A stretch of DNA of 64,000 nt, from assembly GCA_002049455.2 (NCBI GenBank), contig KV919017.1, forward strand, positions 52,280 to 116,279, written 5' to 3'. Positions within the stretch are counted from its first letter, which is position 1. Every line of letters begins with the position of its first letter. A program made the translations under genes and the position numbers. The stretch is from Porphyra umbilicalis (taxonomy: Eukaryota; Rhodophyta; Bangiophyceae; Bangiales; Bangiaceae). This document shows, in pieces, positions 21,606-50,942 of the stretch. The notes beneath the pieces are model-generated. The model did no database searches, was not told where the DNA came from, and worked only from the letters and a program-made list of their open reading frames with translations.

Positions 21606-24600
21606 TACGCCGCCGGCGGCGTGGCCAAAATTGGGAAAACCACCATATCATACTAGAAAACGGGTTCCCAGTGGCCATGTGCCGGCTACCAACGCACGGG
21701 CAGCCGACATCTCCCCCACGCCGCCAACAATCTGGACAACGCTGCCCCCCCGGCGTCGCACTCACGCACGCCACCGCCCCCAGCCCGGCACGCCGTTGTA
21801 CAAGAGGCGGCCGAGCGGCTCGGCCGACAGCCCCGCCCGGTACGCCGCCCGCGCCGGCGCCAGCAGTGCGTGCGCCACCGACGGGTGCAGCGCGTCCGTG
21901 TAGGTGCTGACGCGCACCCCGTCAACGACCACGTCCCCGTGCAGCGTGTGCGGATTGACCTTACCGACCGCCACCGCCGTGCCGACGGCCACCACAACCG
22001 ACACGCCCGTGCCCGTGCCCGGCGTGGCCAGCGCGTCACCAACGACCACGTCCCGCGCCGGCACCAACACGCCATTGGCGTAGACGAGGTGCCCCGGCGA
22101 CAGCAGCAAATCGCGCGTTGTCGACGCCGCCGCCGCCGCCCCGTCGCCGTGCGTCAGCCGCACGTACGCGTGGCGGCCGCCAGTCTGCCGGTGGGAGCAC
22201 CCAAAGACGTCGCTGTGGGCGCCCGCGCCGACGCGCACGGTCGAGCCAGCGGGGAGGGCGCCGAGCGCCGCCGTCGACCCGTCGGCGAGCTCGACCGTTG
22301 CCGCCGCGGGGAAGCACGAGGCGGACTCTTCGGGTGCCGGCAAGGCGCCCTCTTTCGTCCCGTATTGCGGGTTGAGGATCACGACACCGCCCCCAGTGGT
22401 GGTGTTTGGCGCCGGGACGGTGCCACCGGCGCTCACCTCCTCCCTCTCTGGCGCAGAGGCGTAGGCAATGTAGGTGCAGTCCAGCCCATTCGGGCCGAGC
22501 GCGTTGAGCACCCAGTCAAGGACGTCATGGTTGACAAAAATGCCGTTCAACTGCACGTCTTCCCCACACCGCCACACCACCTGGTCGAAGTCCAACATTC
22601 CATAGGCGCGCTCCGGGGGCTCCTGCCGATCCGACCAGAACACGCTCAGGGGGCCGTAAAATTGGCACGCGACGCCATCAAAGGAGAAGACGTCCGCTTC
22701 GACGGACGACTTGGCAATGTAGACGTCAGAATCATTAGAGTTGAGGTGGAGATTCATCATGTTCCTCCACCCCTTCAGGGGCGCGGTGACTTCCGCAACA
22801 AGAGGGCATATGGTAGGGGCGCCCTTCTTTAGGTGGTACCGGCCGACGAGGGCGGATTCGTGGTTGGCCATCGGCAGCGGGGGGCGAAAAATGTCATAAT
22901 CGGCGGCCACGGCGGTCGTTGTGATCACAACGGCAGATGCCGCCAGGGCGGCGAACGCCGACATCCGCGGGTGAGGGCGGCCCATCGTGGGCTCAGGAAG
23001 GGTAGAGTGCGCTTCAGGGGTGCCGACTGGATGGGGGGAGGGGTTGCTTGTCGAGAGGTGAAAAGTACAAGGTGGGGCGCTCGACCCACCACGCAGATGA
23101 TGGTCCTTGCGGTGGCGGCCTGCCCGATGACAACGCGGACGTGAAGGGGGACGTTGCTGCCGTGCCAGTCAGCGTACTGAGGGCGTCGGCTGGAACCTTT
23201 GGTCTCCCATTTTCAACCTCGGAAACCTTTGTGGGCCCCTCTGTGAGACGGGCTGTGAGAGACACTGGTGCCGCACGGCCTGGAACGCGGGTCCCGGGTC
23301 CAGGCGGTATCTTGGAGAAGAGGCCATGCGTGGGGGGCCCACGGCCAACCATCAAAGACTCTTTGCTATCGTGCCCCGGCAGGAGCGGCGACTGGCGCGG
23401 AGAGCTGACCTCAAGCCGCAGCCTGTCAGCCTGGGTGCTTTGGCCCTCACGCGGGGCGCACACCCAGCAGCGGTCGACACCGCTGTGACAGCGCCAGAAC
23501 CGCTGTGGGACCCAGACGTGCACCCATCGTGGATATTGAATTCGCATCTGTGGGCGCCACGTCGAATACTTACCGAGGGGTCGCTGGACGGCCGCCACTC
23601 ATTCATGGCTTGCCCGTCAGCAGCTTGGTACGTAGGGGATGACGAGCGTCGCCAACAAGACAGCGGGTACGTAGAGCCTTGTCGCGGTCTTGCACATGTC
23701 GCGCTGCGGTACAGCAGTGCACGCACCGGTGGGAAGTGGGAGCCGCGGAGCGTAAAGGGAGACACATCGTCTACTGCGGAGTGTTTCTCCATCGACATCC
23801 CATTGAGGCTTCGATGAGGCCATTGACCCATCGAAAAGCGTCTCGATGGGTGCTTTCCAGGTTCCCATCGAACCCATCGATTCGATGCGATTACAGCTGC
23901 AGAGCCCGCACCTCGACCCATCTGATTGGACGACCGCGATGACCTCACCTGTCGACCACAGAGTCTGTGCTTGTTCGATTTGCACTTCATTGGTACTTGG
24001 GGTTCAAGTCATCTCAGGAGACGATCGTTTCACCGTCGTATTTTGTGACCACGTCTTCTTCAGGAGGTCTGAGTCCGCGAGCAAATGACTTGGTCCCCAC
24101 AGGAAAGGAACATGGCCATGTCACCGCACGCTGAGCACCCCGAAGCACAGGCCAGAGGACTGAGAGTATGAAAAAAAACCATCGTGTGTGCAGTGAATAT
24201 GTCCAACGGCCGCTTCTCAGGGGAGTCTGTCATCCTGCCCCGCAAGCACAGGGCACCCGCTTCGTTCCACGCAACGGTGCCCAGACGTCGACGAAGTGAT
24301 GTCGACCTTCGCGGTTTCGAAGGAGGCGACGAGTTGAGATGTCACACAATACATGACAATCACTTCTTTTAATTAGTGGAAATGGATCCTCGATTCGATC
24401 GGTCGATGGCTCTACTTCCATTGCCGTGGTCCCATCGACTTTCCCATCGTTGTTCATCGAACACCAAGGCACACAGCCCTCAATAGAAGAAGCTCTGAAG
24501 AAGTCGATGTGTGTCACGCCTCTGCTGCGAGGCCGTCGACACACCGCCACGCACGCGCTGGGTGGGGTCAGCGGCAAGCCCCACTCAAATTGTGTCGTCA

Positions 24601-24644
24601 CGCCGGGGTGTTGCGCGCGTCTGCTGGACCGCCCTGCCTCTGAG
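21606..24644. repeat. Segmental duplication, copy 1 (3.04 kb)
   Basis: Direct repeat of 28425-31637. From 21648 onward the offset is a constant 6,993 bp with no indel. Before that point it is 6,819, and the 174-bp difference is the MITE inserted in copy 2. Flanking non-coding sequence differs by roughly 1 percent. The copy contains the Hint gene and about 1.65 kb upstream of it. The match ends at 24644, where the sequences diverge abruptly. Confidence 0.95.
21762..22985 (-). CDS. Secreted Hint-domain (Hedgehog/intein-type) protein, paralogue 1
   Basis: 407 residues, single exon. A start at 22985 or at Met8 (22964) would both give a signal peptide (hydrophobic residues about 9-27). Residues 28-180 form an extracellular domain I do not recognise. 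A short Gly/Thr/Pro linker follows. The Hint domain runs from Cys224 (SCFPAAATVELADG) to about residue 375. Cys224 is the expected autoprocessing nucleophile, the LLLSPGHLVYA motif supplies the conserved His, and PHTLHGDVVVDGV is the late Hint signature. In this family the Hint domain cleaves itself from the N-terminal domain; that activity is inferred here. Compared with paralogue 2, differences cluster at residues 82-163. Cys263 is Trp in the other copy. A role in cell-surface or secreted signalling is inference. Confidence 0.8.
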   Translation of the reverse strand: MGRPHPRMSAFAALAASAVVITTTAVAADYDIFRPPLPMANHESALVGRYHLKKGAPTICPLVAEVTAPLKGWRNMMNLHLNSNDSDVYIAKSSVEADVFSFDGVACQFYGPLSVFWSDRQEPPERAYGMLDFDQVVWRCGEDVQLNGIFVNHDVLDWVLNALGPNGLDCTYIAYASAPEREEVSAGGTVPAPNTTTGGGVVILNPQYGTKEGALPAPEESASCFPAAATVELADGSTAALGALPAGSTVRVGAGAHSDVFGCSHRQTGGRHAYVRLTHGDGAAAAASTTRDLLLSPGHLVYANGVLVPARDVVVGDALATPGTGTGVSVVVAVGTAVAVGKVNPHTLHGDVVVDGVRVSTYTDALHPSVAHALLAPARAAYRAGLSAEPLGRLLYNGVPGWGRWRA

Positions 24645-28398: not shown

Positions 28399-28466
28399 AT
28401 GTCTCATTTTTGGGACACGCACCATACGCCGCCGGCGACGTGGCCAATATTGGGAAAATCACCATA

Positions 28467-28638
28467 TTGCTGTCTTCCCAATTTTGGCCGATGTGGTTAA
28501 AGTCAAGAAGGGGTCTGGGTCAACTGCCCATTGGTCAATCGACTTTATCCGGGTGAGTGGATGGCTGAGACGCTGTTTCACACTGTTGATCATCCCTCTT
28601 GACATCGACAGGATCGGCCAAAATTGGGAAGACAGCAA
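28467..28638. mobile_element. 172-bp Stowaway-like MITE with empty site in copy 1
   Basis: A perfect 26-bp terminal inverted repeat (TTGCTGTCTTCCCAATTTTG and on) flanked by TA at 28465-28466 and 28639-28640. Copy 1 of the duplication has the uninterrupted sequence accatatcatact at 21643-21655, which is the pre-insertion site. The insertion therefore happened after the duplication, or copy 1 kept the ancestral state. Confidence 0.92.
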
Positions 28639-28754
28639 TATCATACTAGAAAACAGGTTCCCAGTGGCCATGTGCCGGCTACCAACGCACGGGCAGCCGA
28701 CATCTCCCCCACGCCGCCAACAATCTGGACAACGCTGCCCCCCCGGCGTCGCAC

Positions 28755-29978
28755 TCACGCACGCCACCGCCCCCAGCCCGGCACGCCGTTGTACAAGAGG
28801 CGGCCGAGCGGCTCGGCCGACAGCCCCGCCCGGTACGCCGCCCGCGCCGGCGCCAGCAGTGCGTGCGCCACCGACGGGTGCAGCGCGTCCGTGTAGGTGC
28901 TGACGCGCACCCCGTCAACGACCACGTCCCCGTGCAGCGTGTGCGGATTGACCTTACCGACCGCCACCGCCGTGCCGACGGCCACCACAACCGACACGCC
29001 CGTGCCCGTGCCCGGCGTGGCCAGCGCGTCACCAACGACCACGTCCCGCGCCGGCACCAACACGCCATTGGCGTAGATGAGGTGCCCCGGCGACAGCAGC
29101 AAATCGCGCGTTGCCGACGCCGCCGCCGCCGCCCCGTCGCCGTGCGTCAGCCGCACGTACGCGTGGCGGCCGCCAGTCTGCCGGTGGGACCACCCAAAGA
29201 CGTCGCTGTGGGCGCCCGCGCCGACGCGCACGGTCGAGCCAGCGGGGAGGGCGCCGAGCGCCGCCGTCGACCCGTCGGCGAGCTCGACCGTTGCCGCCGC
29301 GGGGAAGCACGAGGCGGACTCTTCGGGTGCCGGCAAGGCGCCCTCTTTCGTCCCGTATTGCGGGTTGAGGATCACGACACCGCCCCCAGTGGTGGTGTTT
29401 GGCGCCGGGACGGTGCCACCGGCGCTCACCTCCTCCCTCTCTGGCGCAGAGGCGTAGGCAATGTAGGTGCAGTCCAGCCCATTCGGGCCGTTCGCGTAGA
29501 GCACCCAGTCAAGGACGTCATGGTCGACCAAAATGCCGTTCATCTGCACGTCTTCCCCACACCGCCACACCGCCTGGTCGAAGTCCATCATTCCATAGGT
29601 GCGCTCCGGGGGCTCCTGCCGATCCGTCCAGACCACGCTCAGGGGGCCGTAAGATTGGCACGCGACGCCATCAAAGGAGAAGACGCCCGCTTCGACGGAC
29701 GACGTGGCAACGTAGACGTCAGAAACATTAGAGATGAGGTGGAGATTCATCATGTTCCTCCACCCCTTCAGGGGCGCGGTGACTTCCGCAACAAGAGGGC
29801 ATATGGTAGGGGCGCCCTTCTTTAGGTGGTACCGGCCGACGAGGGCGGATTCGTGGTTGGCCATCGGCAGCGGGGGGCGAAAAATGTCATAATCGGCGGC
29901 CACGGCGGTCGTTGTGATCACAACGGCAGATGCCGCCAGGGCGGCGAACGCCGACATCCGCGGGTGAGGGCGGCCCAT
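28755..29978 (-). CDS. Secreted Hint-domain (Hedgehog/intein-type) protein, paralogue 2
   Basis: 407 residues with the same architecture as the gene at 21762-22985: signal peptide, unrecognised N-terminal domain, linker, then Hint domain starting at Cys224. Residues 1-81 and 164-262 are identical to paralogue 1. Residues 82-163 differ at 16 positions. In the Hint domain only residues 263 (Trp for Cys), 289 (Ala for Thr) and 301 (Ile for Val) differ. The gene is intact, with the nucleophilic Cys and the SPGHLIYA motif present. Its 3' flank carries the 172-bp MITE about 120 bp past the stop. Function is inferred as for paralogue 1. Confidence 0.8.
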   Translation of the reverse strand: MGRPHPRMSAFAALAASAVVITTTAVAADYDIFRPPLPMANHESALVGRYHLKKGAPTICPLVAEVTAPLKGWRNMMNLHLISNVSDVYVATSSVEAGVFSFDGVACQSYGPLSVVWTDRQEPPERTYGMMDFDQAVWRCGEDVQMNGILVDHDVLDWVLYANGPNGLDCTYIAYASAPEREEVSAGGTVPAPNTTTGGGVVILNPQYGTKEGALPAPEESASCFPAAATVELADGSTAALGALPAGSTVRVGAGAHSDVFGWSHRQTGGRHAYVRLTHGDGAAAAASATRDLLLSPGHLIYANGVLVPARDVVVGDALATPGTGTGVSVVVAVGTAVAVGKVNPHTLHGDVVVDGVRVSTYTDALHPSVAHALLAPARAAYRAGLSAEPLGRLLYNGVPGWGRWRA

Positions 29979-31637
29979 CGTGGGCTCAGGAAGGGTAGAG
30001 TGCGCTTCAGGGGTGCCGACTGGATGGGGGGAGGGGTTGCTTGTCGAGAGGTGAAAAGTACAAGGTGGGGCGCTCGACCCACCACGCAGATGATGGTCCT
30101 TGCGGTGGCGGCCTGCCCGATGACAACGCGGACGTGAAGGGGGACGTTGCTGCCGTGCCAGTCAGCGTGCTGAGGGCGTCGGCTGGAACCTTTGGTCTCC
30201 CATTTTCAACCTCGGAAACCTTTGTGGGCCCCTCTGTGAGACGGGCTGTGAGAGACACTGGTGCCGCACGGCCTGGAACGCGGGTCCCGGGTCCAGGCGG
30301 TATCTTGGAGAAGAGGCCATGCGTGGGGGGCCCACGGCCAACCATCAACGACTCTTTGCTATCGTGCCCCGGCAGGAGCGGCGACTGGCGCGGAGAGCTG
30401 ACCTCAAGCCGCAGCCTGTCAGCCTGGGTGCTTTGGCCCTCACGCTGGGCGCACACCCAGCAGCGGTCGACACCGCTGTGACAGCGCCAGAACCGCTGTG
30501 GGACCCAGACGTGCACCCATCGTGGATATTGAATTCGCATCTGTGGGCGCCACGTCGAATACTCACCGAGGGGTCGCCGGTCGGCCGCCACTCATCCATG
30601 GCTAGCCCGTCAGCAGCTTGGTACGTAGGGGATGACGAGCGTCGCCAACAAGACAGTGGGTACGTAGAGCCTTGTCGCGGTCTTGCACATGTCGCGCTGC
30701 GGTACAGCAGTGCACGCACCGGTGGGAAGTGGGAGCCGCGGAGCGTAAAGGGAGACACATCGTCTACTGCGGAGTGTTTCTCCATCGACATCCCATTGAG
30801 GCTTCGATGAGGCCATTGACCCATCGAAAAGCGTCTCGATGGGTGCTTTCCAGGTTCCCATCGAACCCATCGATTCGATGCGATTACAGCTGCAGAGCCC
30901 GCACCTCGACCCATCTGATTGGACGACCGCGATGACCTCACCTGTCGACCACAGAGTCTGTGCTTGTTCGATTTGCACTTCATTGGTACTTGGGGTTCAA
31001 GTCATCTCAGGAGACGATCGTTTCACCGTCGTATTTTGTGACCACGTCTTCTTCAGGAGGTCTGAGTCCGCGAGCAAATGACTTGGTCCCCACAGGAAAG
31101 GAACATGGCCATGTCACCGCACGCTGAGCACCCCGAAGCACAGGCCAGAGGACTGAGAGTATGAAAAAAAACCATCGTGTGTGCAGTGAATATGTCCAAC
31201 GGCCGCTTCTCAGGGGAGTCTGTCATCCTACCCCGCAAGCACAGGGCACCCGCTTCGTTCCACGCAACGGTGCCCAGACGTCGACGAAGTGATGTCGACC
31301 TTCGCGGTGTCGAAGGAGGCGACGAGATGAGATGTCACACAATACATGACAATCACTTCTTTTAATTAGTGGAAATGGATCCTCGATTCGATCGGTCGAT
31401 GGCTCTACTTCCATTGCCGTGGTCCCATCGACTTTCCCATCGTTGTTCATCGAACACCAAGACACACAGCCCTCGATAGAAGAAGCTCTGAAGAAGTCGA
31501 TGTGTGTCACGCCTCTGCTGCGAGGCCGTCGACACACCGCCACGCACGCGCTGGGTGGGGTCAGCGGGAAGCCCCACTCAAATTGTGTCGACACGCCGGG
31601 GTGTTGCGCGCGTCTGGTCGACCGCCCTGCCTCTGAG

Positions 31638-33128
31638 TCAGCGTAGCGCTGCCCCGTCATTGCTCTCCAGTGACGGGATGAGCGCTGCGTGCCCCAATGC
31701 AGAGGGGGCGGGGGAAGAGGCGCCTTGCGTGGTGGCGTTGGGATCGTCAGTTAGATGCCCATCGAACACCCGATCCGATGGGAACCGATGGCCCATCGAA
31801 CAGGGTGCCCGATTGGAAGTGATGGGCGCCCGATATTTATTGTGCTTCTCACAAAAACTGGACCTCGGTGCATCAGCTTCCGTTGCAAAATCACTGTTTC
31901 ATTGGCTCAGGGGGCGGTTCATGATGCTGAAGCGGATGTTGCGGATCCAGTTTTTGTGAGAAGCACAATAGGGATTCTTGCCCGATTGCATCGTGCCCCA
32001 TCGGGCACAATCGTCGGAGGTCACGAGACTTTCTCGACTGACAGCTCTTCTCTGACCAACCAAAAGCGTGGGATACTGGAGTTGCTGCAGGATGCTTGAG
32101 GGCCGTACTGATGTGTGGAAGCACCAAGTCGCCAATGCACAGAGAATTGGTTGACGACGGCGGGCTACGTACCAGCTTCGGAGAGGACACAGATACAGGA
32201 CGCGTGTCCTTTTCCCTGGTTCTTCCCATGCGTTCCCAGTTACCAGACAGAAAACGCGTCGATGGACGGTACCAGTCACGCGTCGCGCACTCCACGGGGA
32301 CGCAGGACAGATGCAGAACAACGTGCTCCTTCCTCGCAGCCCGGCAAGAGAACTAAAAGCAGAAAAGGAAGATGCAAGACCATACATAACAAGGACGGGG
32401 CCTCAAAGTACCAGTCATAAGGAGACGAAAAGAACAAGAGCACTATCGCCTCAGGTATCTTCCCGACGGACAGACAGCTCACCAGCCCAGACAATCCTCT
32501 CACCATCACTCATGCCAAAGGCCCGCTCATCGTACAGAGTAAGGAACTGATGTCAAGGGAGACTACAACGCTGTTCTCGGTACCGAAGGTTGTGACACAT
32601 GCGAAGACGGTTGCCGAAGAGATACGGAAGAGGCAGAGATGCCAAGAAAGAGCGAGACAATCGACACAGGAAGGACGGTGATGGATGATGACCATCTCTC
32701 AAGAAAAAGAGGGAAGGAGACAGGGCGGTTGGAAGGGTGCGGCATGCAATTAAAGAGGCAGCGTGAAAAAAAGTGAGATGACGGAAGCCAAACGCGTGGC
32801 ACGACGAAAGAGTGCTGGCCGACGACGAGACGGTAAGAATGGAACAGTGCGTGAACAAACGGATCTAGCGTACCTCGCACCCAACCGCCCCCAAAGAAAG
32901 TAAAGAACGGCCACAAACCTGCTACGTGCCCATGAAGGCCAATCGTGCAAGCGTACGTGTGAGCGGACTCATGTGGTGCGCGGGCGGGACCGTCGGGGGG
33001 GACTTTGGGGAAGGTGCACATGGCGGTGGCGCGTGGTCGGATCGCGCCGCGGCCCGATGAAGGCCGCGCAACCCGGCCCTCAGACTCGCCGTGATGCCAA
33101 GTCGTGCAGGACTGCGTCACCTCCCAGA
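31638..33128. other. No gene recognised
   Basis: Gene-poor, with lower GC from 32100 to 32950. Clusters of CCCATCG/CGATGGG occur at 31750-31835 and 31975-32015 on both sides of the MITE at 31840. Only short frames, none supported. Confidence 0.4.
31840..31968. mobile_element. 129-bp MITE, copy A, TA-flanked
   Basis: A 23-bp perfect terminal inverted repeat (TTGTGCTTCTCACAAAAACT...) flanked by TA at 31838-31839 and 31969-31970. About 97 percent identical (four differences) to the copy at 33391-33519. No coding capacity. Tc1/mariner-type (Stowaway-like) by its TA target. Confidence 0.9.
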
Positions 33129-33720
33129 TGGTCCTCGTACTTTCTCTTGTCCTCATGCAGAAACGTGGCGTGCTTTACATCTAGTCCCTTGCAGCACTAG
33201 CGTCCGTCGAGGAAAGAAACGGCTTGAACTCGGTCTAAATCACGAGAGCGGCCCCATCGGCGCCCCTGTTTGATGGGCGCCCGATGCGAGTCCGATGGGG
33301 GTCATCGGGCCCCATCGGGCCCCATCGAACAGCCGATCCGATGGGCTTTTGTGCCCGATGCGAGCCGATGCGGCCCGATGCACGATTCTATTGTGCTTCT
33401 CACAAAAACTGGACCTCGGTGCATCAGCTTCCGTTGCAAAATCACTGTTTCATTGGCTCAGTCGGCGGTTAATGATGCTGAAGCGAATGTTGCGGATCCA
33501 GTTTTTGTGAGAAGCACAATAGCGGAAGCTGACGATGGGGCCGGATGGGACCCGATGAGTCCCATCGCGCACCCACCGGTCGCCCACCGAACAGGGGTTC
33601 CGATGGGCGTTCTCACGAGCCCCGCCCGGAGTTCCGGGCCGAACAGCCGACAGCCGGGGCTCGTTATGCAAGGGTGCTGATGTAAAGCATGCCACGTGTG
33701 AAGACAAGGACTAGGACGAA
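33129..33720. repeat. Imperfect inverted repeat flanking a CGATGGG cluster and MITE copy B
   Basis: The core arms are acgtggcgtgctttacatc (33163-33181) and its inverse at 33679-33697, with one mismatch. Weaker pairing extends outward on both sides. The interior holds dense CGATG/CATCG motifs and the nested 129-bp MITE. It may be an older foldback or TIR element; the ends are not defined. Confidence 0.45.
33391..33519. mobile_element. 129-bp MITE, copy B, TA-flanked
   Basis: Same element as 31840-31968, with TA at 33389-33390 and 33520-33521. The flanks gattc-TA and TA-gcggaagctgacg resemble the uninterrupted sequence gattctaccggaagctgacg at 35510-35529, which looks like a related empty site. 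Confidence 0.9.
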
Positions 33721-35529
33721 GGCGAGTTATTATCAAACATGGTGTCTTTGGCTGCCAAATGCACTGGCCTGGGTTCGACGCCTTCAACAGACTCGTCGTC
33801 TGATCGCCGTGTGACCGTCTTGCCTCTCGCCTGCGATCCACATGGGCACCCTCACCACTTGCCCCGACCCCCTCGTCCCTCCCGCTCCCCTACCAGACCA
33901 CCGATGCGAGCGGCTCGCTGCTTACCACCGTCTCCACCGCCGCCACTGGCACGACGGTCATCAACCAAACAGCGGGGGGGGGGGGGGTGATGGGGGGGGT
34001 CCTCGGCACCCTCGTCCTCTTCGTGCACGTGTGGGGGGGGGGGGTGGGGCGGGGGGCAGTGTTGCCGCCGCCGCCGCCACCGTGGCGGTGGGGACGCCGC
34101 CGTGGCTGACGGAACCGACCCGACGCCGTCGGCCGCGTCGGCCGCGCGTTCCGCCTTGCGTCCGTGCGCGTGGCGGTGCTGTTGCGTTTTTTGCGTTTTT
34201 TTTGTTTTTTTTGCTTGTCGTCCCTTTGCCGTCTGATCCGGCGGCTGTACGACTTTTTTCCCGTTCGGCGCGCCCCCGCGCGCGCCGCTTGGCCGGGCGG
34301 CGGCGGTCGGTCGGGCGGCGGCGTGTCGCCGGCGCGGGGGGGATGCCGCGCCGTCTGCGACGCTGTCACGCGGGGGGGCGCCGCGGTCGGGTCGCCGCGG
34401 CAGGGGGTGCCGCCCGTGGGGGCTCCCCGCCGCTGCCACTGCCGCCGCCGCCGCCGCCACCGTTGGCGGTGGGTCCGTCGCGCGCCCGCCGGGGCTCAAG
34501 CCATGTTGCTTGCGGCCACCCCCACGCGCCAGTGGGATGGTACGTTGGAGCTGCGTGGGCGTTGGTCGGGGCTGGGGGGAAGGAAGGTGGCGACGGTCCT
34601 GTGTGGCGAGCGGCGACCCAGCTGCCTGCGGCACAGTGGTGGACGGGGACGTTTTCGACCGCACGAGCTGCGGTGCACGTCGTGCCGCCCTGCCACCACC
34701 ATGGCCGCGGCCATCTCCACCGGCTGCCGCACAGCTGGCGCTGCATCCACAGGGAGGCCTCTCTCATTTGTCCGACCGTCCGGCTACCCGCGCGCCGCAG
34801 CCGCTCGCTGCGGCGACCTTTGCTGCGCCGATGTCAGTGGCGCCGGGCAGGTCGCCGCGGACCGTGCCGGCGCCGGCTGTGCACTTGGGAGGGCGTCGCC
34901 CCCTGTGGCAGTGGGGTGTCATGGTCGACTGATTTTGGTAGCCGGTCCTCGGTGGGGGGGGGGCAAGGCAGAACGGGCGGGTCGTCTTCCTAGAGTTCTG
35001 TAGGGCTTGCGGTGGACCCGTCCCCACCGCCGGCGCACGGGAAGCGGCCGGCCGGCCGCCGCGACGAGCCCTGCACCCACTTCTCTCAGTACGCGTATTG
35101 CCCTGGTTCGCATATGCATCGCCATGGGCACTTTTTTCTCGTGCCAGACACCACGCGTACGTCATCAGAATCGTCCTAGCTGAGCAAGAAATGCATGGCG
35201 AAGAAAAAGAGAAACACGCCCAGGCGCGCGTGTTTCTTGGACAGGTGTCACCACCCGGTACACCCACTTGCAACTTGCCTGCATCATTCCCTTCCAAAAG
35301 GCTCCTGAGGCATGATGTGCATATTGGGATTCTGGTTGGTCGCAGAAGAGCTGTCAGCAGCCTTGGTCTCGTGACTCACGCCGATGGGTGCCCGATGAGG
35401 CCGATTTCCCCCGGGCATTGTCCCCATCGGGGCCCCATCAGTTCCAACCGGACACCCGATTCGATGGGCTTCGATGCCCACCGAACACCCCCTCCGATGG
35501 GGATTCTACCGGAAGCTGACGAAGCTGAC
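33721..35529. other. GC-rich block, no gene assigned
   Basis: Long frames on both strands at 33842-35003 arise from GC-rich, low-complexity sequence with G and T runs (33967-34050, 34185-34220). None has a recognisable domain or a clear codon pattern. A further CGATGGG cluster lies at 35380-35510, next to a segment (about 35330-35400) similar in inverted form to 31990-32075. Confidence 0.35.
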
Positions 35530-35606
35530 GCGTCGGCCACCATCCATGGCGCAGAACAATGAGCCAGCCTGGCTCATTGTTCTGCACCATGGATGGTGGC
35601 CAACGC
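35530..35606. repeat. 77-bp near-perfect palindrome
   Basis: gcgtcggccaccatccatgg on the left is mirrored on the right with three or four mismatches. The centre is gagccagcctggctc. No spacer to speak of, so it could extrude as a cruciform. It sits just after the CGATGGG cluster and the probable empty MITE site. Confidence 0.85.
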
Positions 35607-37519
35607 TGCTACGCACCCGTGACGCGTGGCAGGCGCGGGCGGGCGACGCCTGGCCTGGGGCCGCACGCGTCGTGAAGTCCGAGTACCCGTCGACGACCGA
35701 CAGTTTGTTGACGAAAATTACACACGCTTGAGCTGTTCGTAATTCTGGACCAACCAAGTTGGATTGTGTCCACTGGCCGGATCTGACCGAGGAAACGGTC
35801 CATTCCTCAACTCGTACCGTATCCATATATACCTGGGATACTTTTTCTACGGCCGAAGTGGCGGCCGTGGCGGGGTGGCGGGCGGCGCGCTTCGACGGTG
35901 GCGGCCTTAACAGCACGCCGCACAGCATCCAACCGAGTGCCTCCAGTCTGTACAGTACTCTCTGTCGGCGGATGACTCTGGCCCCGCTGGCCGCCGCCGA
36001 CGTGTCTCCGCCCTCCCCCATCCGCCCGCGACACGCCCGCTGACCGTCGTGGTGGGGGGCGTGCCCCGCGTCGCGGCGCGTCCCCCCACCCCCTCGCAGG
36101 TCGGCCGCCGCCACTCGCTCACCCGCCCACCTGTGCGACGCACGGCGGACGCGCGCGCGCGTGGCCACTGCCGCCGCTCGCGGCATGGCCGCCCGGCGGC
36201 GGATGGCCATGCCCCGCAGGACACGGTCGACGCCACGCACGTCGGACTGTGGTCGGTTCCCGTCTGCGGGTGACGACGGCCCGCCTCGGTCGCGAAGCAC
36301 CGCTGCCGGCCGGGGGCGCTGCATTGCAAGCCGCCGCGCGCGCCGCGCCGTGGGGTGATCCCGCCTTGCGCCGCGCTCCCCGCCGCCGCGGCCGCCGGCT
36401 GCGACGGCGCAAAGCCACTACCCCCGGCGACGCTGCCACCGCCGCGCCACCACCGCCGCTCTTTCGGCGGCAGCAGCCGCCACACAGCGTGCACGCTGCA
36501 CCCCGCCGGCAGTACGCGGGACCCCGCCGGCGGTACGTTGCACCCCGCCGTCGCTACGCTGCACTCTGCAGGGTGCGGTGGACGCGCTCCGCACGACGCG
36601 CACGGCGCGGCGCTCACGGGCGAGCGCCCGGCGGGTAGCGGGGCCGCCGCCGAGCGGGCGGTATCACGGTGGGTGGCGAAGCGGCTGACGGGCCCGCCAG
36701 ACCACCTCGCCAGCGCCTTTTTTTCACCAGTGGCGCGGGGGTGCCGACCGCTGCCGGCGCGGCGGCCCAAAAGGCGGGGGGTGCAACGGTTGCGGCGGCG
36801 GGCGTTGAGCGACACGCAGCCACTCCCCGCGCCCGCGTTCCCCCTTTTGGCGCGCCCCCGGTTGGGACGGCGCTCGGTCCACACCGTCGGGCAGCACGCA
36901 AGGTTGGTTGTGCCCCGCCGGCACCGCCGGCCTCGCATCCGCGTCCCGGGCGGTCGCAGCCGAGGCGGAGTGCAAAAAAACCACCCCCCCCCAAGAAAAA
37001 GCAGCCACGCGCGGGGGAGCCCGGTACACCGGTGCCCACTCGACGTGCGCGTCTGCAGCGGCTAGCGGTCGGCACCCTAGAAGCGCCTCCCCCCCCGCAC
37101 CAACCATATCCCCGCGGGCCGACGGGCACCCCGCCGTCGCAGGCGGTGCGGCGCCCCCAGCGGCGAGGCGCACGCCGACGCGCGTTCCCGACCGCCGGCC
37201 GCAAATGGAGTCCGCGGCGGTGCGCACAGCGTGTCGGCGGCGCTGCGCGCCCGATGGGCCGGCGGCGGCGGCGGGGCGGCGGTTGTCGCGGCGGCCGCCC
37301 GGATCGCTACGGGTGGCAACGTCGACAGCGGCCGCGGCGCGGCGGCTCGGCGGGCCAGACTCGCTGCAGTCGCGTAGCACCCGACCGGGGGGGTGCGGGT
37401 GGGGCATCCCACCCACACCAGACGGCCGCCCGCAGACGTGCGGCACGTCCGCGGCGGCGGACCCTTCCCCCCCCACGGGTGAGGCTTTGTACTCAAGCGC
37501 TGAGGACGCGATCGTCATA
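35607..37519. other. GC-rich region, no gene assigned
   Basis: Overlapping long frames on both strands at 35800-37500 with Arg/Pro/Ala-rich products and no domain. A 21-bp repeat (about three units) lies at 36490-36555. It may be an eroded gene, but nothing can be named. Confidence 0.35.
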
Positions 37520-40359
37520 TGGCGGCTGCTTCTCAATTTTGGCCGATGCGAACAAGAACAACAATGGCAGAAACAGCCTTCTCGGCCAATAGGCCTATTG
37601 CCCGAACGTGATCTGATTGGTGCACGTCACTCTTCTGGCGCCCTATAGGGGCGCTATCGTCCTCCTTTGTGTTTTCTGCATCTACAGCCGATCTTTCTCG
37701 CCCGATGCACATCAACCGATCCTTACCCGATTTCGATGCAGTCTCGGACGCGCATCGTATGTCTAATCCTGGCCATCGTTGCGATGCGACTTGACAGGCG
37801 ACCGGCGATGCGGAAATCGGAGGCCTCGCCTGAACTTGGAGGACGTGGGGGGGGCTTGAGGGCTCAATGAAGGCCTTCTTGTTTAAGTTTATTGCAAAAA
37901 CAAGGAGTTAGAAAGCCCCACACCGACGGTGCCTTGATTCTGCGTCTTCAGGAGGCCACGTTGCCTTCCGGCGGGCCGCTCGTGGCTCACTCACCCGACG
38001 AGGCTCTCTTCGGCGTGCGTGGCCCGCGGTTGACTTGACCGTGGGCTCGCTCCCCACCGGTGGGCACGGTGCACCGTGTGGGGTCCGTGACGTTGCGCCC
38101 CGCCTCCTTCCAGATGGTCGTTATCGTACACCTTGTCGTGCATGTGTGCTCGGTACGTGACTGTGCCTGCCTGGTGAGTGCTCTGCATGTTCCGGTGATT
38201 GAGTGTCCCTCGGACGTGATGGATCCGCCGGGGCATTTCCTTTTTTGACGTCGGCGTTTTCAACCGCTATTTGCCTGGGCGCACGATGTGCTTGGGCTTG
38301 GAACACGCACCATTACAATCGCTGTATCATACTGTGTTTGCTCTTGCTCTTGGGTTTTCCTTCCTTATGAAGTGGTGGCTGACAATCTTCTGTACTCTGT
38401 TCTGTTTATCTCGCTGCCACACAGGCGCATCCGTATGTTCTCCGAGGAGGTTGGGGGGGAGGAGTGCCAGCGGATCGGTGGCGTGGGAGACGTGGGCGTC
38501 GTTGGGGGTGGTGAGATCAGTGGCGGCAAGTGGGCTCTAGACGCGTCACACGCGCTCTGCTTGCTCTGTACTGACGTCAGTTCAAGTCGACTGTGCGCTC
38601 TATGTTGTGTTCCTCTCTCTTGCTGGCTGTATTGGTTTGCCCTCTTCATTAGCGAAGCTTCTAGTAGGGATCCATTCGCGTTCTCAACGCTCAGGCAGCC
38701 ACGTTGCATGAAATTGATGGCCCTGGTCTGTTTGATGGTCACCCTCTAGGCCATGTGATTGGATGATCCCATCTGTACGCCCAATCACGCGTATCCACGT
38801 TTCAGCATTCGATGGCCTACGATCGCTCTGGTCCAGAAGGATTACACATGCGAGCGATTACAGCTTCCTCCAAAAGCGTTTACAGATGCCTTCCTGGAAC
38901 CCCCACTGTACTCCACACAAGAGCCCCGAAATGGTCAGCAGCGCGCATCTTTGCGGCCATATCAGCACCGCGTCTCCGCCATCTTCCGTCGTCTCGCCAT
39001 CTCGCCCCTCCGTCGGGCCTTTCACAGCACCCCTCCATCGTCGTCACCGCACCACCGTGCTCTTTCTTGGACGCGCTCGCCACATCCGCCCCTTTCTTTG
39101 CCCCCGCGCGCCGCATCCGCCCATTTCTTTCCCCCCCCCCCTTCCCCCCTCCGCACACCATGCACGTTGCGCTGCACTCAGGTACGTTTTTTCTTCAATG
39201 TGTTCCTCGTCCTTCCCCGTCCCCCCCCCGAGCCCCAGCCGGGTTGTTTACTCTTCTGTTCTTCTTTTCTTGAGGCATCTGATCGCCTCTGCTGCCGACC
39301 TCCCCCTGCGTGTGGCGGCGCGCCGGGTGCTGCGCTTGTCTGCCTTGCTGACCATTTCTTTGTGCTGAGAATCATACGACAAAGATGAAGATACCAAATG
39401 AAGACCGACAATGGGGACGCTTTAACTGGAGAAGACAAAGGGACACAACAACAACTGGGAAAGAGGAAAGGGACCCAACGACGTCGTGGTCAGAAGAGTG
39501 AAGGAGCAGAACGAAAGGCCTCATTACAGTGCTGAAGCTCGGAATTCTATGGCAGCATCGAAAAGAGACGCTCCCCCGATGTACAACCATTATGCTGAAT
39601 ACTGCATCACATGATAAGTTAATTGCTCTGTCAGTCATCCCAACAATATTTGTAGAATGGGTGAAGCACTCGCTCGTGTGACGGGAAACACATTTGGCGC
39701 CTTAGGATAGAATCCTTATTGTTTGAGCAAACGTTATTTTGGAGTTGGACACACCGTTCGACTCAGCTCATCGAGATCTGTCCTGTGAGGCTATCTCCAA
39801 GTCAATCTGATCGAATGTCAAGAACTGGTGGATGCGCACTGGTGACTACTGGCTTTTTCCCGACCTGTGTGTCTGTGTTCTCACGAAAAGTGGAAGCTTC
39901 GCTACCTGGTCCCTGCCCTGGGGGACCAACTTGTCCCTTCTGTTCTGTTCCATGCACCTTCTCCACTTGCCGTACAGCGTCCGGAACCGGATCGCGTGCC
40001 GCATTCAATCAATAAAATCTCGAAGGGCACGTGTCTCAACTGCCTCGTCATGATTAAATCCCACTACTTGAGTTTAGCGCAATTGTATCGGTGGCCTGGA
40101 CTTATGTGATGTCCCAATCGGCCCGCATCTCCCCGATGTGCATCGCATCGTCGATCTCAAGTGTAGCGGAATCGATCTTCGATGCACTGTATGCCACATC
40201 GGTGCCAACATCGAAAATCGCAAATAGATGCACTCGGACCAAATCAGGACGATAGGGGCGCTATAGAGGCGCGCCCAGAAAAGTGACGTGCACCAATCAG
40301 ATCACGTTCGGGCCCGGTCCTGTTCCTGTTCGAGTCGGCCAAAACCCAGAACAGAGCCA
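37520..40359. mobile_element. 2.84-kb TIR element with TA target duplication
   Basis: The left end TGGCGGCTGCTTCTCAATTT at 37520 and the inverse at the right end are diverged, but share a TTTTGGCCGA core and a GAACA block further in. A perfect 32-bp inner inverted match lies at 37600-37631 and 40282-40313. TA flanks both ends (37518-37519, 40360-40361). Similarity continues inward for about 250 bp through CGATG-rich sequence. No transposase is visible; frames at 38288-38749 and 38763-39368 are weak. The TIR core resembles those of the MITEs at 28467 and 46395, suggesting one superfamily. Confidence 0.6.
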
Positions 40360-40689
40360 TATTTAGTGCTGGAGCAACGCCTGGCAACTCTCTGCTGGCG
40401 ACTGCGTCCAGAGTGCCGAGACCAGCGATGCACTTGGGTTTTGCTCACACGACCTGGGAGGACTGGGGGGCTATTTCTTGATCAATTGTGAAGACAACCT
40501 GTCTCCCAAAAGAAGCCCTGAAATAGGACTTGGTAGGAATTGGGAGACTGCGCGGTCGTCGACCGCGAAGCTTGGTAGATGTCAACGATCGCGAGGCCCG
40601 CGACGTCCTCGCCGCCCATCCGCTTCGCCGAGAGCGAGGGAAACGGACGTCCGCGACTGGACACGACGCCTTCGTCGTGAGCCCTAAAG

Positions 40690-40830
40690 TGTGTTGCGGC
40701 GCCGTTTCTTCTCATTCTCCTTTCCTACCGTCTCCCCTCGTCTTCCCCGCTCCCCCGCCGTTTCTCCCGTTCCACGCCATCCCTGCGCGTCGGTTCCACC
40801 CCCCCCCCGCCGTCCCCATTGCCCGTCATC
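40690..40830 (+). promoter_or_regulatory. Pyrimidine-rich leader of ribosomal protein P0
   Basis: Nearly unbroken C/T sequence precedes the P0 start codon. Ribosomal protein genes of many eukaryotes have pyrimidine-rich transcript starts, so this may mark the transcription start and growth-linked translational control. No TATA box is evident. The role is inference. Confidence 0.35.
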
Positions 40831-41778
40831 ATGGCCAAGATGGCGAAGAAGGAGGCCTATGCGGCCAAGCTGCTGCAGTACTTTGACGAGTATGACAAGA
40901 TGTTTGTTGTGCAGGCGGACAATGTCGGTTCCAACCAGCTGCAGCAGCTGCGCGCGCAGGTGCGCGAGAACACGGTGCTGCTGATGGGGAAGAACACCAT
41001 GATCCGTAGAGTGCTCCGCAACCACGGCCCTGAGAACCCGGACCTACTGACCGTCCTGCCCGTTGTGGTCGGCAACATTGGCATGGTCTTCACCAAGGGC
41101 GACCTGAAGGAGGTGCGCGACAAGATTGCCAGCAACAAGGTGCCCGCGGCGGCCAAGGCCGGCACCATTGCCCAGTGCGAGGTGTTTATCGAGCCTGGCC
41201 CGACCGGCATGGAGCCGACCATGACGTCTTTCTTCCAAGCTCTGAACATCCCGACCAAGATTAACCGCGGGCAGATTGAGATCCAGTCGCGGGTCAAGCT
41301 GCTGGACGAGGGCCAAAAGGTGGGCTCTTCCGAGGTGGCGCTGCTGCAGAAGCTCGGCATTCGCCCGTTCTCCTACGGGCTCAAGTTCCTGCACGTGTTT
41401 GAGAATGGCCAGATGTACTCGCCCAAGGTGCTTGACATCACCGACGACGACCTGCTCGCGCACGTCAAGAGCGGCCTCAACAACATTGCGGCCATCTCGC
41501 TCGCCACCAACTACCCGACTCAGCCGTCTGTGGCGCACTCGATGCGCAACGGGCTCAAGAACTTGGTGGCGGTGTCGCTCGCGACCGACTATGTCATCGA
41601 CGCAGCCAAGGAGCTCAAGGAGCTGCTGGACAACCCAGAGGCGTTGGCGGCGATGGCCGCGGCGGCCGCGTCGGGCGGCGGCGGCGGTGGTGACGATGCG
41701 AAGGAGGAGGCCCCGGCCGCGGCCGAGGAGGAGGAGGAATCGGAGGACGACGACATGGGCTTCGGGCTCTTCGATTAG
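40831..41778 (+). CDS. RPP0: 60S acidic ribosomal protein P0 (uL10)
   Basis: 315 residues, single exon. The ATG at 40831 has A at -3 and G at +4; an upstream in-frame ATG at 40819 has a poorer context. P0 anchors the P1/P2 stalk on the large ribosomal subunit and recruits translation factors. The N-terminal rRNA-binding domain (about residues 10-105) holds the ADNVGSNQLQQLR and LMGKNTMIRR motifs. The insertion domain follows (about 110-185), with FFQALNIPTKI. After an Ala/Gly hinge the protein ends in EEEEESEDDDMGFGLFD, the universal stalk tail that binds factors. Length matches the family. It is convergent with cystathionine gamma-synthase, 291 bp apart. Confidence 0.97.
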   Translation: MAKMAKKEAYAAKLLQYFDEYDKMFVVQADNVGSNQLQQLRAQVRENTVLLMGKNTMIRRVLRNHGPENPDLLTVLPVVVGNIGMVFTKGDLKEVRDKIASNKVPAAAKAGTIAQCEVFIEPGPTGMEPTMTSFFQALNIPTKINRGQIEIQSRVKLLDEGQKVGSSEVALLQKLGIRPFSYGLKFLHVFENGQMYSPKVLDITDDDLLAHVKSGLNNIAAISLATNYPTQPSVAHSMRNGLKNLVAVSLATDYVIDAAKELKELLDNPEALAAMAAAAASGGGGGGDDAKEEAPAAAEEEEESEDDDMGFGLFD

Positions 41779-41924
41779 GGCGGCGTCGACTCGGCTACGT
41801 GTCTGTCTCGGTAGGTGTCTTGCACGCGACAGCGTGCAGCGTACTGTTTTTTTCCCCGATGTGTGTCCCTGGGGCTTTTAGGGTGTGCGTGGAGGCCTAC
41901 TTAACAACACATCTTTCCTATTGC

Positions 41925-41962
41925 ACTCGCGTCTCCCTTGTGGGAGCGTGTCCCGCGCGAGT
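41925..41962. terminator. Inverted repeat between convergent genes
   Basis: ACTCGCG and CGCGAGT enclose a second stem CTCCC-ttgt-GGGAG. It lies midway between the stop codons of P0 and cystathionine gamma-synthase and could form a hairpin in either 3' UTR. The role is a guess. Confidence 0.25.
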
Positions 41963-42069
41963 AACACCATACCAAGACCCTGTCAGTAAGGGCGTGCGCC
42001 AGTGCGGCGGCAGCCGTACCAGACGTCTAGTTTACGGGGAGCAGATGAGCACGATGCCCACATGCCCGC

Positions 42070-43764
42070 TCAGGCAGCGTCCAGCGCTTGCAGCACGTCG
42101 TCGACAACATCCTTGGTGTCCTCAATGCCACAGGCAAACCGCACGAGCCCGTTGCAAATGCCCAGGCGCTGGCGCTCCCGCAGCGGCTGGTCAAAGTACC
42201 CCATGATGCACACTTGCTCGATGAGGCTCTCCGTGCCGCCCATGCTCGGGCCGATATACGGCAGGCGGAGGGCGTCGACAAAGCGGCCGGTCGCCTCAAA
42301 CGTCTCTTGCGACCATGGGTTGCCGTCGCCGACCAGCTCAAAGGAGAGCACCCCTCCAAAGCCACGGGGGAACTGCTGCATGGCAACCTCGTGATCGACG
42401 TGTGACTTGAGGGACGGGTGGTGGACCTTGGCGACCTCGGGGTGTGTCGAGAGGACGTCGGCCAACGCCTGCGCGTTGCGGTTGTGGGCTGCCATGCGCA
42501 GGGAGAGCGTCTTGAGGCCCCGCAGCAGGAGAAAGGCCGCGTGCGGGTCGAGGACGCCGCCGAGGACGCCGTGCAGCCGCCGCACCGGGTTGATGAGTGC
42601 CGACGAGCCAACGAGCGCGCCGCACAGCACGTCATTGTGGCCTGCAAGGTACTTGGTGCCCGAGTGCAAGACGAGGTCCGCTCCGTGGTCGATCGCCCGA
42701 AAGTTGTAGGCCGTCGCAAACGTTGTGTCAATGACCGACGTGACCCCATACTTGCGACACAGGCCCGTCACCGCGTCCGTGTCGAGCACGCGGATTAGCG
42801 GGTTGGTCGGCGTCTCGGAGAAGAACAGGGAGGCCCCCTCGCTCGCGAAAATAGCCTCGAGCCGTGCCGTATCCGCCGGGTCAACCACCGTCGTGCGGAC
42901 GCCCATCTTGGGCAGCACCGTCCCGACAAACTGGCGCGTCCGCCGGTAGCAGTCGGTGGTGACGACAATGTGCCCATTCTCCGGCACCAGCGCCAGGAGC
43001 ATCGTCGTCACGGCATTCATGCCCGACGACGAAACGAGCGCGTCTTCCCCGCCCTCGAGCGCCATGAGCTTCTCCTCCACCGCGCGCGCCGTCGGGTTGC
43101 CATAGCGCCCATATTCAAACGACTCGTACGTGCCCTGGTTGTACTCAATGCACTCGCGCGTGGAGCGAAAGGTAAAGGTGGAGCTCTGCACGATGGGCGT
43201 GGCAATCGCGTCGAGCGTCGCGCGCGCCTTTTTCCCGCCCTTGACGCGCTCCCCGCCGTGGACGGCGCGCGTCTGCATGCCGCCCTCCGCCACCGCCGCG
43301 GCGCGGAGCGTCGACGCGCCGTTGGGTTCGGCGCTCACCAGCGCCGCCAGGCCGGCGAGCTCCACCGTCTCCTGCGCGGCGGGCCCGACCGGCTTGCCGT
43401 CGCGGAGGTAGGCGGCGACGGTCGCTTCGGGGTCTGCCGCGCCGACGGGCTCGGATTGCACCTGGTCACCGCCGCTCGGCTGTGGGCTCTGCTGCACGGG
43501 GTTGACCGCCGTCGCCGAAGCAGACGCGCAGCGCAGGCCGCCGGCGGCCGGCAGGGGGAGGGCGGTGACAACATTGGCGGCGGCCGCCACCGCCGTGCCA
43601 ACGGCACGGACGCCAAGGAACGAGCTCGAGCGACGGGCCACGGCGAGAGTGGCGGGACGCACCGATGGTGGCGGCATGCCACGCGTCCACCCTTGATCAC
43701 TGCGCGCTGGGGTCCCCATGGGCAATACAAAGGTGGCGGCGCGGGACAACCCATGAAAGGCCAT
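42070..43764 (-). CDS. CGS1: Cystathionine gamma-synthase, plastid-targeted
   Basis: 564 residues from the ATG at 43764, which has an ideal GTCACCATGG context; a longer frame to 43827 is less likely. It joins cysteine to an activated homoserine ester to make cystathionine, the committed step of methionine synthesis. The first 80 or so residues are Ala/Ser/Arg-rich with few acids, as in a plastid transit peptide. The PLP-enzyme core starts near residue 160. YGRYGNPT (218-225) and SSGMNA (246-251) bind the cofactor phosphate region, Asp346 of DTTFA pairs with the pyridine nitrogen, and Lys371 in HSGTKYLAGH is the Schiff-base lysine. Plant enzymes use O-phosphohomoserine; the substrate here is not determinable. 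Cystathionine beta-lyase is the main alternative, but the HSGTKYLAGHNDVLCG type motif favours gamma-synthase. Confidence 0.9.
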   Translation of the reverse strand: MAFHGLSRAATFVLPMGTPARSDQGWTRGMPPPSVRPATLAVARRSSSFLGVRAVGTAVAAAANVVTALPLPAAGGLRCASASATAVNPVQQSPQPSGGDQVQSEPVGAADPEATVAAYLRDGKPVGPAAQETVELAGLAALVSAEPNGASTLRAAAVAEGGMQTRAVHGGERVKGGKKARATLDAIATPIVQSSTFTFRSTRECIEYNQGTYESFEYGRYGNPTARAVEEKLMALEGGEDALVSSSGMNAVTTMLLALVPENGHIVVTTDCYRRTRQFVGTVLPKMGVRTTVVDPADTARLEAIFASEGASLFFSETPTNPLIRVLDTDAVTGLCRKYGVTSVIDTTFATAYNFRAIDHGADLVLHSGTKYLAGHNDVLCGALVGSSALINPVRRLHGVLGGVLDPHAAFLLLRGLKTLSLRMAAHNRNAQALADVLSTHPEVAKVHHPSLKSHVDHEVAMQQFPRGFGGVLSFELVGDGNPWSQETFEATGRFVDALRLPYIGPSMGGTESLIEQVCIMGYFDQPLRERQRLGICNGLVRFACGIEDTKDVVDDVLQALDAA

Positions 43765-44188
43765 GGTGACGACGACGGGGGTGGCAGGATGCGACCAATG
43801 GGAGCACACCAGTAGGAAGGAGGGCAAACAAGGGAAATGTAGGGTGGAAGCACAGAGAAGGAGCTACGAGGTGGAGCAGGCGGGGGGGGAAACATGCGAC
43901 GGGGGGTAGGCTGAGGCGTGCGGCGAGGGAGCAGGTAGGGTGGCGGAAACAACAAATCATCCGACCGCGGCGGTCCGTTGAGCTCTCGGCGAGAGGCCAT
44001 AACAACGGAGCGCTCAGTCCCCGAGCGAGGCTCAGAATCCGAGATACAGCGATATTTTGCAGGGGTTCATACGGTCGAAGCGAGCATGGCAATTGCTTCA
44101 GTAGGAAGCACGGCATTAAGCCTTAGCAATTTTGAAGTTGTGCATGTATTTATTGGTTGTTGGAATGGTGTTTTGCGGCGGCTGCAAG

Positions 44189-44570
44189 TAGGGTTGCACA
44201 CGACGCCCCTATTTCGGGGGCGTCAGGGGCGCGCGACGGATAAGACGCCTTACTGACGCCCCATTAGGCAGCCAAAACGCCCTCACGAGGCCCCAAGTAG
44301 CACCCTCAATATTCGCAATATGGGCCAAGTGGCACCCATACTTTGCTTTCATAAGTCATTTTTGTGTCAAGACTGGGTGCCTGTCCCCAACCAAGGTGCA
44401 CAGCCGCCACCTGCTGAACTATGTAGACCCCCATGAACACTTTCTCTTCGCGACGCCTTGCTGACGCCCTTTTGAGTTGGGGCGTTAGGGGCGCACGACG
44501 CCCAAATGACGCCCTAGTGACGCCCTTAACGACGCCCTTAACGACGCCCCGGGCGTTCTGAGCAACCCTA
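44189..44570. mobile_element. 382-bp hAT-like MITE with exact 8-bp target duplication
   Basis: The ends TAGGGTTGCACACGACGCCC and the inverse of TAGGGTTGCTCAGAACGCCC match at 17 of 20 bases. The 8-bp sequence GCTGCAAG is present on both sides (44181-44188 and 44571-44578). Subterminal repeats of GACGCCC occur many times near both ends, as in hAT elements where transposase binds. There is no ORF. Confidence 0.92.
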
Positions 44571-44578
44571 GCTGCAAG

Positions 44579-45078
44579 CGCCTGGGCTGTCCTTCGTACT
44601 TGACGCAGGATGGAACAGAGAGCAGAATAGCTAGGCAAAGGCACCACAGTTTCTGGTCGTTACGGTGACATGGAGGGGTTCTAGAGCAGTGGCAGAGAGA
44701 ACAGTTTGCCGACGTAATCAGCTCGACGACCTGTAGAGTGAGGGATGGGGGTGATGGTGTGCCAGCAGGAGACATTGCTGCGGCAGTTCAGCTGGCGAGT
44801 ACACGCGGGGCTCAGGGGAGAGGGAACGAAACATACACATCAGGCACACCAGAAACACCGAGGGCAAACATCAAGTCGGACGTCCATCAACAAAGACGCA
44901 GACTGACGGACAAGCCTCCTCGAGTTGACTCTCCGACCCCGGGGGAATGCAAACGCACCACATCCAACCACAGGAGCAGATGCTACCGTTTGAACTCATG
45001 AGAAGAGAATCGGGAGGACGACGCATCGAGCGCTGATGTCATTGTGGGCTTTATGCCGATCATCATTGTGGGCTTTAT
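44579..45078. other. Intergenic
   Basis: No gene recognised. A direct repeat of atcattgtgggctttatg lies at about 45042 and 45063, just before the hairpin. Confidence 0.4.
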
Positions 45079-45122
45079 GTCATCGTGGCAAATGGATACA
45101 ATGCTCCATTTGCCACGATGAC
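45079..45122. repeat. Perfect 18-bp stem hairpin with 8-nt loop
   Basis: gtcatcgtggcaaatgga and its exact inverse surround tacaatgc. It sits about 130 bp past the stop of the dioxygenase-like gene, so it would lie in its 3' transcript. It could be an RNA element or a small foldback insertion. Confidence 0.85.
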
Positions 45123-45250
45123 CACACAGTCGATATGTACAGGGTCAAGCAGTCCGCAGACGCCCTGATGAGCAAGAGTGAAGTTACACACCCACCGCCC
45201 CGCCCCCCCGCCCCACCGTCCAACCGCAGGCCGTCCAGGGGGCGGCCGAC

Positions 45251-46180: not shown

Positions 46181-46394
46181 GGCGGCGGCAGCGGCAGGGC
46201 CGGGGTCCCGCTCGGGCAGTCAAGGGAGAGTACCAAACGTCGTCACGGTTGTGTCGGCATCGGTGGAGCACACAAAAACTCGGGAGATGCTCCTGCCACG
46301 CACGGGCTGCAGCGGCAGCAACAGAGGCGTAGCTCAATCAGAGTGGAAGGAAAACTCAAGTGCTCGAAGCTGTTTGCTGAAAGTGACATCACTA

Positions 46395-46553: not shown

Positions 46554-46555
46554 TA

Positions 46556-50509: not shown

Positions 50510-50541
<32 letters not shown>

Positions 50542-50925: not shown

Positions 50926-50942
50926 GGCGTGCCGTCACCCCG

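Follow-up and report, generated by a model that had tools for sequence, protein, structure and literature searches.

Recognition proteins caught in an evolutionary race, gamete-recognition proteins among them, are often rich in protein-changing mutations beside parts that remain conserved. The diatom Sig1 is mentioned as one such protein (PMC3879662). Hog proteins with diverse secreted N-termini are present in many eukaryotes, red algae included (Buerglin 2008, PMC2362128). In Cyanidiococcus, 8 of the 10 Hog genes are reported as mainly haploid-expressed, and non-hedgehog Hog proteins are described as lacking a known function (PMC13353863). The protein type is known. Our literature searches, with most subscription papers outside their scope, turned up nothing on positive selection limited to one domain of Hog proteins or acting on their N-terminal domains, which is weak evidence of absence.

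Here we analyse two Hog-type genes, A and B, in a 64,000-nucleotide stretch of the Porphyra umbilicalis genome (the window), together with a third paralogue, C, on another contig. The phycobilisome linker genes of the assembly point to a red alga as its probable source. The three paralogues carry a signature of selection limited to one domain, and the signature appears again in an unrelated pair of Hint genes of the same genome.

Three related Hint genes and their parts

Genes A and B lie in the two copies of a duplication, which are spaced 6993 bp and show 43 differences, gap-free over 3022 bp (Table 1). Both genes are intact, with 407 codons each and no indel between them. The initial annotation had placed two 407-residue genes in a duplication about 1% different in its non-coding sequence, and the measured value agrees (23 of 1798 positions, 1.28%). 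At the edge of the second copy, a 176-bp stretch (window 28465-28640) matches L009:273-448, in the sequence preceding copy C, at 90% identity and is possibly a repeat at the duplication breakpoint. A weak further Hint match occurs in the window at about 55672-55971 on the minus strand, within a 243-aa open frame (E = 3.6e-7 with B, E = 7.6e-8 with the database protein P0003).

Table 1 Features of the duplication and of the two Hint genes, in window coordinates
Feature	Position	Strand	Basis
Duplication copy 1, carries gene A	21623..24644	.	blastn of both stretches: 3022 bp, 43 mismatches, no gaps
Duplication copy 2, carries gene B	28616..31637	.	Same blastn comparison with copy 1
Gene A, 407 aa, Hog-type Hint protein	21762..22985	-	ORF; residues 220-382 match Pfam Hint PF01079 (E = 1.1e-13)
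Gene B, 407 aa, Hog-type Hint protein	28755..29978	-	ORF; Pfam Hint PF01079, E = 1.4e-14; near-identical P0001 in another sample
Gene A residues 1-28, presumed signal peptide	22902..22985	-	Hydrophobic stretch; low-confidence model places a helix at 9-21
Gene B residues 1-28, presumed signal peptide	29895..29978	-	As for gene A
Gene A N-terminal domain with linker as far as the Hint Cys (residues 29-223)	22317..22901	-	Four cysteines (60, 107, 140, 170) invariant in 7/7 aligned proteins
Gene B N-terminal domain with linker as far as the Hint Cys (residues 29-223)	29310..29894	-	As for gene A
Gene A codons 82-163, 17 nonsynonymous differences from B	22497..22742	-	Codon comparison of A and B
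Gene B codons 82-163, equivalent tract	29490..29735	-	Codon comparison of A and B
Gene A Hint part, Cys 224 to stop	21762..22316	-	Pfam, PDB sequence match; Cys 224 in 48/48 rows with a residue
Gene B Hint part, Cys 224 to stop	28755..29309	-	Pfam, PDB sequence match; Cys 224 conservation

Scores against PF01079 (51.7 bits for A and 54.6 for B) are over the curated cut-off of 29.7, which C, the database proteins P0001-P0004 and locus L018 also exceed. Pfam searches of A and B at E ≤ 1 returned Hint models only, with no N-terminal Hedge signalling domain; the N-terminal domain is without a Pfam match and was found in seven proteins only. With structure models of low confidence, calycin and AOC-like beta barrels are no more than candidate folds for this domain. 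A comparison with PDB sequences gave two hits at E ≤ 1, both of them hedgehog (6td6_B, E = 0.021; 6tyy_A, E = 0.14). In a 55-row alignment of this genome's Hint parts, which was not deduplicated, all 48 rows that have a residue at position 224 carry the catalytic Cys (the other 7 of 55 have a gap). His 265, which aligns with Asp 303 of fly hedgehog, stands in 53 of 53 rows with a residue, and His 299, in an SPGH motif presumed equivalent to TXXH, in 47 of 52, although the hedgehog alignment does not pair SPGH with TXXH. Asp 303 of hedgehog is the general base for sterol transfer, and the D303H variant is reported to stay active and to take more sterols (PMC9163320); the family-wide His at this position is a natural counterpart of laboratory D303H with its broader sterol range. 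By analogy, self-cleavage and perhaps transfer to an algal sterol are plausible, given the conserved Cys 224, His 265 at the position of Asp 303 and the activity of D303H hedgehog. Gene A departs from the family at Cys 263 (region of window 22195-22199), two residues before His 265; Phe or Trp occupies this position in 51 of 53 rows. Among the seven aligned proteins, the six besides A share W at 263 and A at 289, in contrast to C263 and T289 of copy A. Cys 263 may affect the Hint activity of A, and copy A may be weakening.

Four full-length relatives, P0001-P0004, were found in a protein database. P0001 lies nearest copy B, sharing 112 of the 113 residues of 51-163; like A and C it carries F150 and V301, and it also has K363. 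The metagenomic relatives P0002-P0004 share with A, B and C 36-49% identity in residues 51-163 and 89-94% in the Hint part. Cysteines 60, 107, 140 and 170 and the Hint Cys 224 are invariant in all seven aligned proteins.

Copy C (C4:685149-686372) is an intact ORF with 95% nucleotide identity to A and B. Across the 83.8 Mb and 665 contigs of the genome, searched with B, P0003 and P0004, the matches listed include the N-terminal domain in A, B and C with no fourth copy, and all others start at query residue 151 or later. Upstream, C has sequence in common with A and B (97.8% over 490 bp, plus other pieces), a similarity broken by an insertion of about 2.7 kb. The insertion (L009:1270-3928) contains stretches 93-96% identical to window 33533-33966 and 34504-34998, a few kb beyond B; these probably represent a shared mobile or repeated element, which is perhaps linked to the spread of these Hint genes.

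Differences between the duplicated genes

The two coding sequences differ at 20 bases, 20 nonsynonymous and none silent. As the initial annotation had counted, 17 of these fall in 16 codons between 82 and 163 (codon 163 has two) and every one is nonsynonymous; residues 1-81 and 164-262 are identical, with zero differences, and the Hint part has only three changes (from A to B, C263W, T289A and V301I). At the non-coding rate 3.1 differences would be expected in the 246 bp of the tract (Poisson P = 4e-8), a density five times that of non-coding sequence, and the other 978 coding bases hold 3, where 12.5 would be expected (P = 0.0015). When the 43 duplication differences were permuted 20,000 times, 17 never fell in a 246-bp window; taken by themselves, the non-coding differences show no significant clustering (P = 0.09 for 100-bp and 0.70 for 200-bp windows).

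How surprising the missing silent changes are depends on the null. The earlier expectation that about a quarter of the differences would be silent holds under simple nulls (22-28%), for which 17 of 17 nonsynonymous changes in the tract gives P = 0.003-0.013. Under a null that preserves the base type of every difference but moves it to other positions within the tract, only 2.7-3.1 of the 17 are expected to be silent, about 14 are expected to be nonsynonymous, and P rises to 0.03-0.04. The same conditioning gives P = 0.022-0.028 for residues 29-218 and P = 0.008-0.011 for the whole gene (20 of 20 nonsynonymous); by branch, residues 29-218 show 7 of 7 nonsynonymous on A (P = 0.065) and 8 of 8 on B (P = 0.25). 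The all-nonsynonymous count by itself is therefore moderate evidence, since P climbs to 0.03-0.04 once base types are kept, and the strong part of the A/B evidence is the local rate excess together with the domain contrast.

So abrupt a tract invites the idea of gene conversion, in which recombination between dispersed copies imported a patch of A or B from a diverged paralogue. The sharp edges, with zero differences in codons 1-81 and 164-262, fit this idea, as does the absence of silent A/B differences from about 326 silent sites, where the non-coding rate predicts about 4 (P about 0.015), a shortfall that could reflect partial homogenisation of the rest. Elsewhere in the genome, on contig C141, loci L022, L024 and L029 have silent divergence of 0.10-0.17 in the Hint half and 0.47-0.96 in the N-terminal part, as if their Hint halves had been homogenised by gene conversion. 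The donor is the difficulty. A third paralogue identical to one copy over exactly this segment, which the initial annotation had named as the mark of conversion, was sought and not found: C, the only other copy, matches A at some sites and B at others. With C as outgroup, the tract holds 7 A-derived, 8 B-derived and 2 three-way changes. The changes of the two branches are mixed along the tract (9 runs of 15, P = 0.70), a pattern not expected of a segment copied from C or into it, which rules C out as donor. The search found just three copies of the domain in the assembly and no donor among them. An older imported tract should also bring silent changes, and there are none in about 54 silent sites; a lost or unassembled donor would itself need the same nonsynonymous excess. 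We consider conversion of the tract unlikely.

Domain contrast across paralogues

Between C and A or B, codons 51-163 have 38-39 nonsynonymous and 4.2 silent differences (dN 0.16, dS 0.057) against 2-3 and 6 in Hint codons 219-407 (dN 0.005-0.0075, dS 0.037), with non-coding divergence at 2.5% (A/C) and 2.8% (B/C) over 1658 columns. Nonsynonymous divergence of codons 51-163 from C is thus about sixfold the non-coding value, and silent divergence is only mildly raised. The N-terminal part (29-218) and the Hint part differ accordingly by Fisher's test (P = 0.0013 for A/C and 0.0005 for B/C). With base types kept, nonsynonymous changes are in excess in residues 29-218 of A/C (P = 0.011-0.018), and not over A/C as a whole, where 48 of 62 changes are nonsynonymous and 45-46 would be expected (P = 0.27-0.32).

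A codon likelihood model of the three sequences (F3x4, custom script, shared branch lengths) gave omega 2.57 for residues 29-218 and 0.157 for 219-406, two omegas being preferred over one at P = 1e-14 and the N-terminal value exceeding 1 at P = 0.0015. Fitted alone, the parts gave omega 2.38 for 29-218 (P = 0.027), 3.17 for 51-163 (P = 0.011) and 0.16 for Hint (P = 0.005); a four-part fit, whose bounds were set after seeing the data, gave 3.9 for 51-163 (P = 1.7e-6). We note that these tests of A, B and C draw on one genome, few silent sites and domain bounds that are partly post hoc. The raised dN/dS that the initial annotation had named as support for selection on the secreted domain is borne out by the values of 2.57 and 0.157, and the contrast recurs against the third paralogue.

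If the copies were redundant, the N-terminal domain could instead be drifting without selection under relaxed constraint. Copy A's C263 and T289 are consistent with this, and so is the whole-gene omega of about 1 (1.10 in the A, B, C codon model, not different from 1, P = 0.75). Yet drift predicts omega 1 in the N-terminal domain, where 2.4-2.6 is seen (P = 0.0015 with shared branches, 0.027 alone), and it cannot surpass the non-coding rate sixfold; the Hint part, moreover, remains constrained between C and A/B (omega 0.16, P = 0.005) and the three ORFs are intact. Relaxed constraint is improbable on these values.

We scanned 53 distinct Hint-hit ORFs for other young pairs (loci L012-L061, n = 50, with L001-L011 excluded and some genes possibly in two pieces). 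One other very young pair was found, L018 on contig C41 and L019 on C327, which have only 1.87 kb in common and whose N-terminal part has no match to that of A, B and C at E ≤ 1e-6. In codons 60-289, 18 of 18 changes are nonsynonymous (P = 0.003 with base types kept, 0.002 when strand-symmetric), and the two changes in Hint are both silent (0 of 2 nonsynonymous). Over the whole ORF the count is 18 of 22 (P = 0.22-0.23), two of the silent changes preceding the presumed start Met 57. The linker, codons 253-283, accounts for ten of the 18 changes: at nine, L018 has A/T and L019 has G/C, and the tenth is G to C; without the linker, 8 of 8 are nonsynonymous (P = 0.10). In five older Hint paralogue comparisons N-terminal dN/dS is 0.33-0.50, and the nonsynonymous excess is therefore confined to young copies. 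Hint matches occur at 76 places genome-wide, some of them two pieces of one gene; contig C243 alone has at least 7 in 20 kb (about 31951-51816), with some N-terminal parts partly alike.

The linker of L018/L019, where 9 of 10 changes run from A/T to G/C and without which P is 0.10, raises the concern that mutation or GC-biased conversion spared G/C-rich third positions and struck first and second positions, mimicking selection. Third-position GC indeed reaches 77% in residues 29-218 and 92% in Hint, compared with a GC content of 60% in non-coding sequence. The excess nevertheless survives conditioning on base type in A/B (P = 0.022-0.028), A/C (0.011-0.018) and L018/L019 (0.002-0.003), and the directions of change are not those of such a bias: the A branch has 6 changes from G/C to A/T, 3 neutral and 0 from A/T to G/C, and the B branch 3 from A/T to G/C, 2 the reverse and 4 neutral. 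A bias should also strike the Hint half and the flanks, yet neither is accelerated. We give this artefact a low probability, although GC-biased conversion may have acted in the L018/L019 linker.

That the differences stem from faulty sequencing or assembly, or that A and B are alleles mistaken for separate copies, is highly improbable: B's L150 and I301 are missing from P0001, A and C, but P0001, from another data set, keeps 112 of 113 B residues in 51-163, random errors would include silent changes, and the surroundings of A, B and C differ outside the shared stretches, and L018 and L019 share just 1.87 kb. Antisense coding that spares third positions was likewise considered. A 320-aa antisense ORF exists, but the longest antisense open frame, 356 codons in A and B, shrinks to 275 in C, and 16 of the 17 tract changes are at sense positions 1 and 2, nine of them at position 1, the antisense third; the idea was set aside on these counts.

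A proposed role and its relation to known systems

We favour, with reasonable though incomplete confidence, an explanation in which purifying selection holds the Hint part and diversifying selection acts on the N-terminal domain, likeliest through a changing binding partner. Diversifying selection on the secreted domain, first proposed in the initial annotation, draws support from the third paralogue, the codon model, the L018/L019 pair and the metagenomic relatives. A, B and C are Hog-type proteins, in which a presumably secreted N-terminal domain with cysteines precedes a Hint module of the hedgehog type. If it acts as in hedgehog, the module would break the chain before Cys 224, free the N-terminal domain and perhaps join it to a sterol by an ester bond. 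Purifying selection holds the Hint half, and in the N-terminal domain, most strongly at residues about 51-163, amino-acid changes appear to have been fixed after duplication faster than neutral ones. The released domain would sit at the cell surface or wall and bind an ever-changing partner, a candidate being a mating partner, a self/non-self determinant or a microbe. Secretion, cleavage, lipidation, surface display, a recognition role and a changing partner are what we infer from the sequences, and the N-terminal domain may serve in recognition or as a ligand. Haploid-stage recognition fits both the diverse N-termini of Hog proteins and the haploid expression in Cyanidiococcus; defence or wall assembly fits too.

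More tentatively, and as a possibility that we would not call probable, the large Hint set as a whole could form a modular secreted recognition repertoire, in which a shared Hint tail, self-cleaving and possibly lipid-attaching, is kept by purifying selection and gene conversion while every new duplication lets positive selection diversify the exported heads. Such a repertoire would serve the haploid stage in mating, in telling self from non-self or in recognising microbes. Diversifying selection limited to one domain would mark the secreted half as an interaction domain, and the analysis names the genes and sites. It would also bear on the origin of hedgehog-like ligands, with a conserved processing tail and a head free to change.

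Among described systems, the proteins resemble non-Hedgehog Hog proteins, in which a presumed secreted N-terminus with conserved cysteines precedes Hint and N-termini are conserved within groups only (PMC2362128); they differ in that the N-terminal domain here is without a Pfam match, was found in only seven proteins and has selection shown by codon comparison. The Cyanidiophyceae Kelch/trefoil/Hint subtelomeric family offers a parallel as many-copy red algal Hint genes with varying partner domains, although its N-terminal domains differ (PMC9812998, PMC13353863). Animal Hedgehog shares the Hint module with its catalytic Cys, through a weak sequence match, whereas here no Hedge signalling domain was found and His 265 stands in place of Asp 303. 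The pattern of change resembles that of rapidly evolving recognition proteins, which are secreted or at the surface (presumed here) and carry an amino-acid excess beside a conserved part; unlike in gamete-recognition proteins, the carrier here is a Hint protein.
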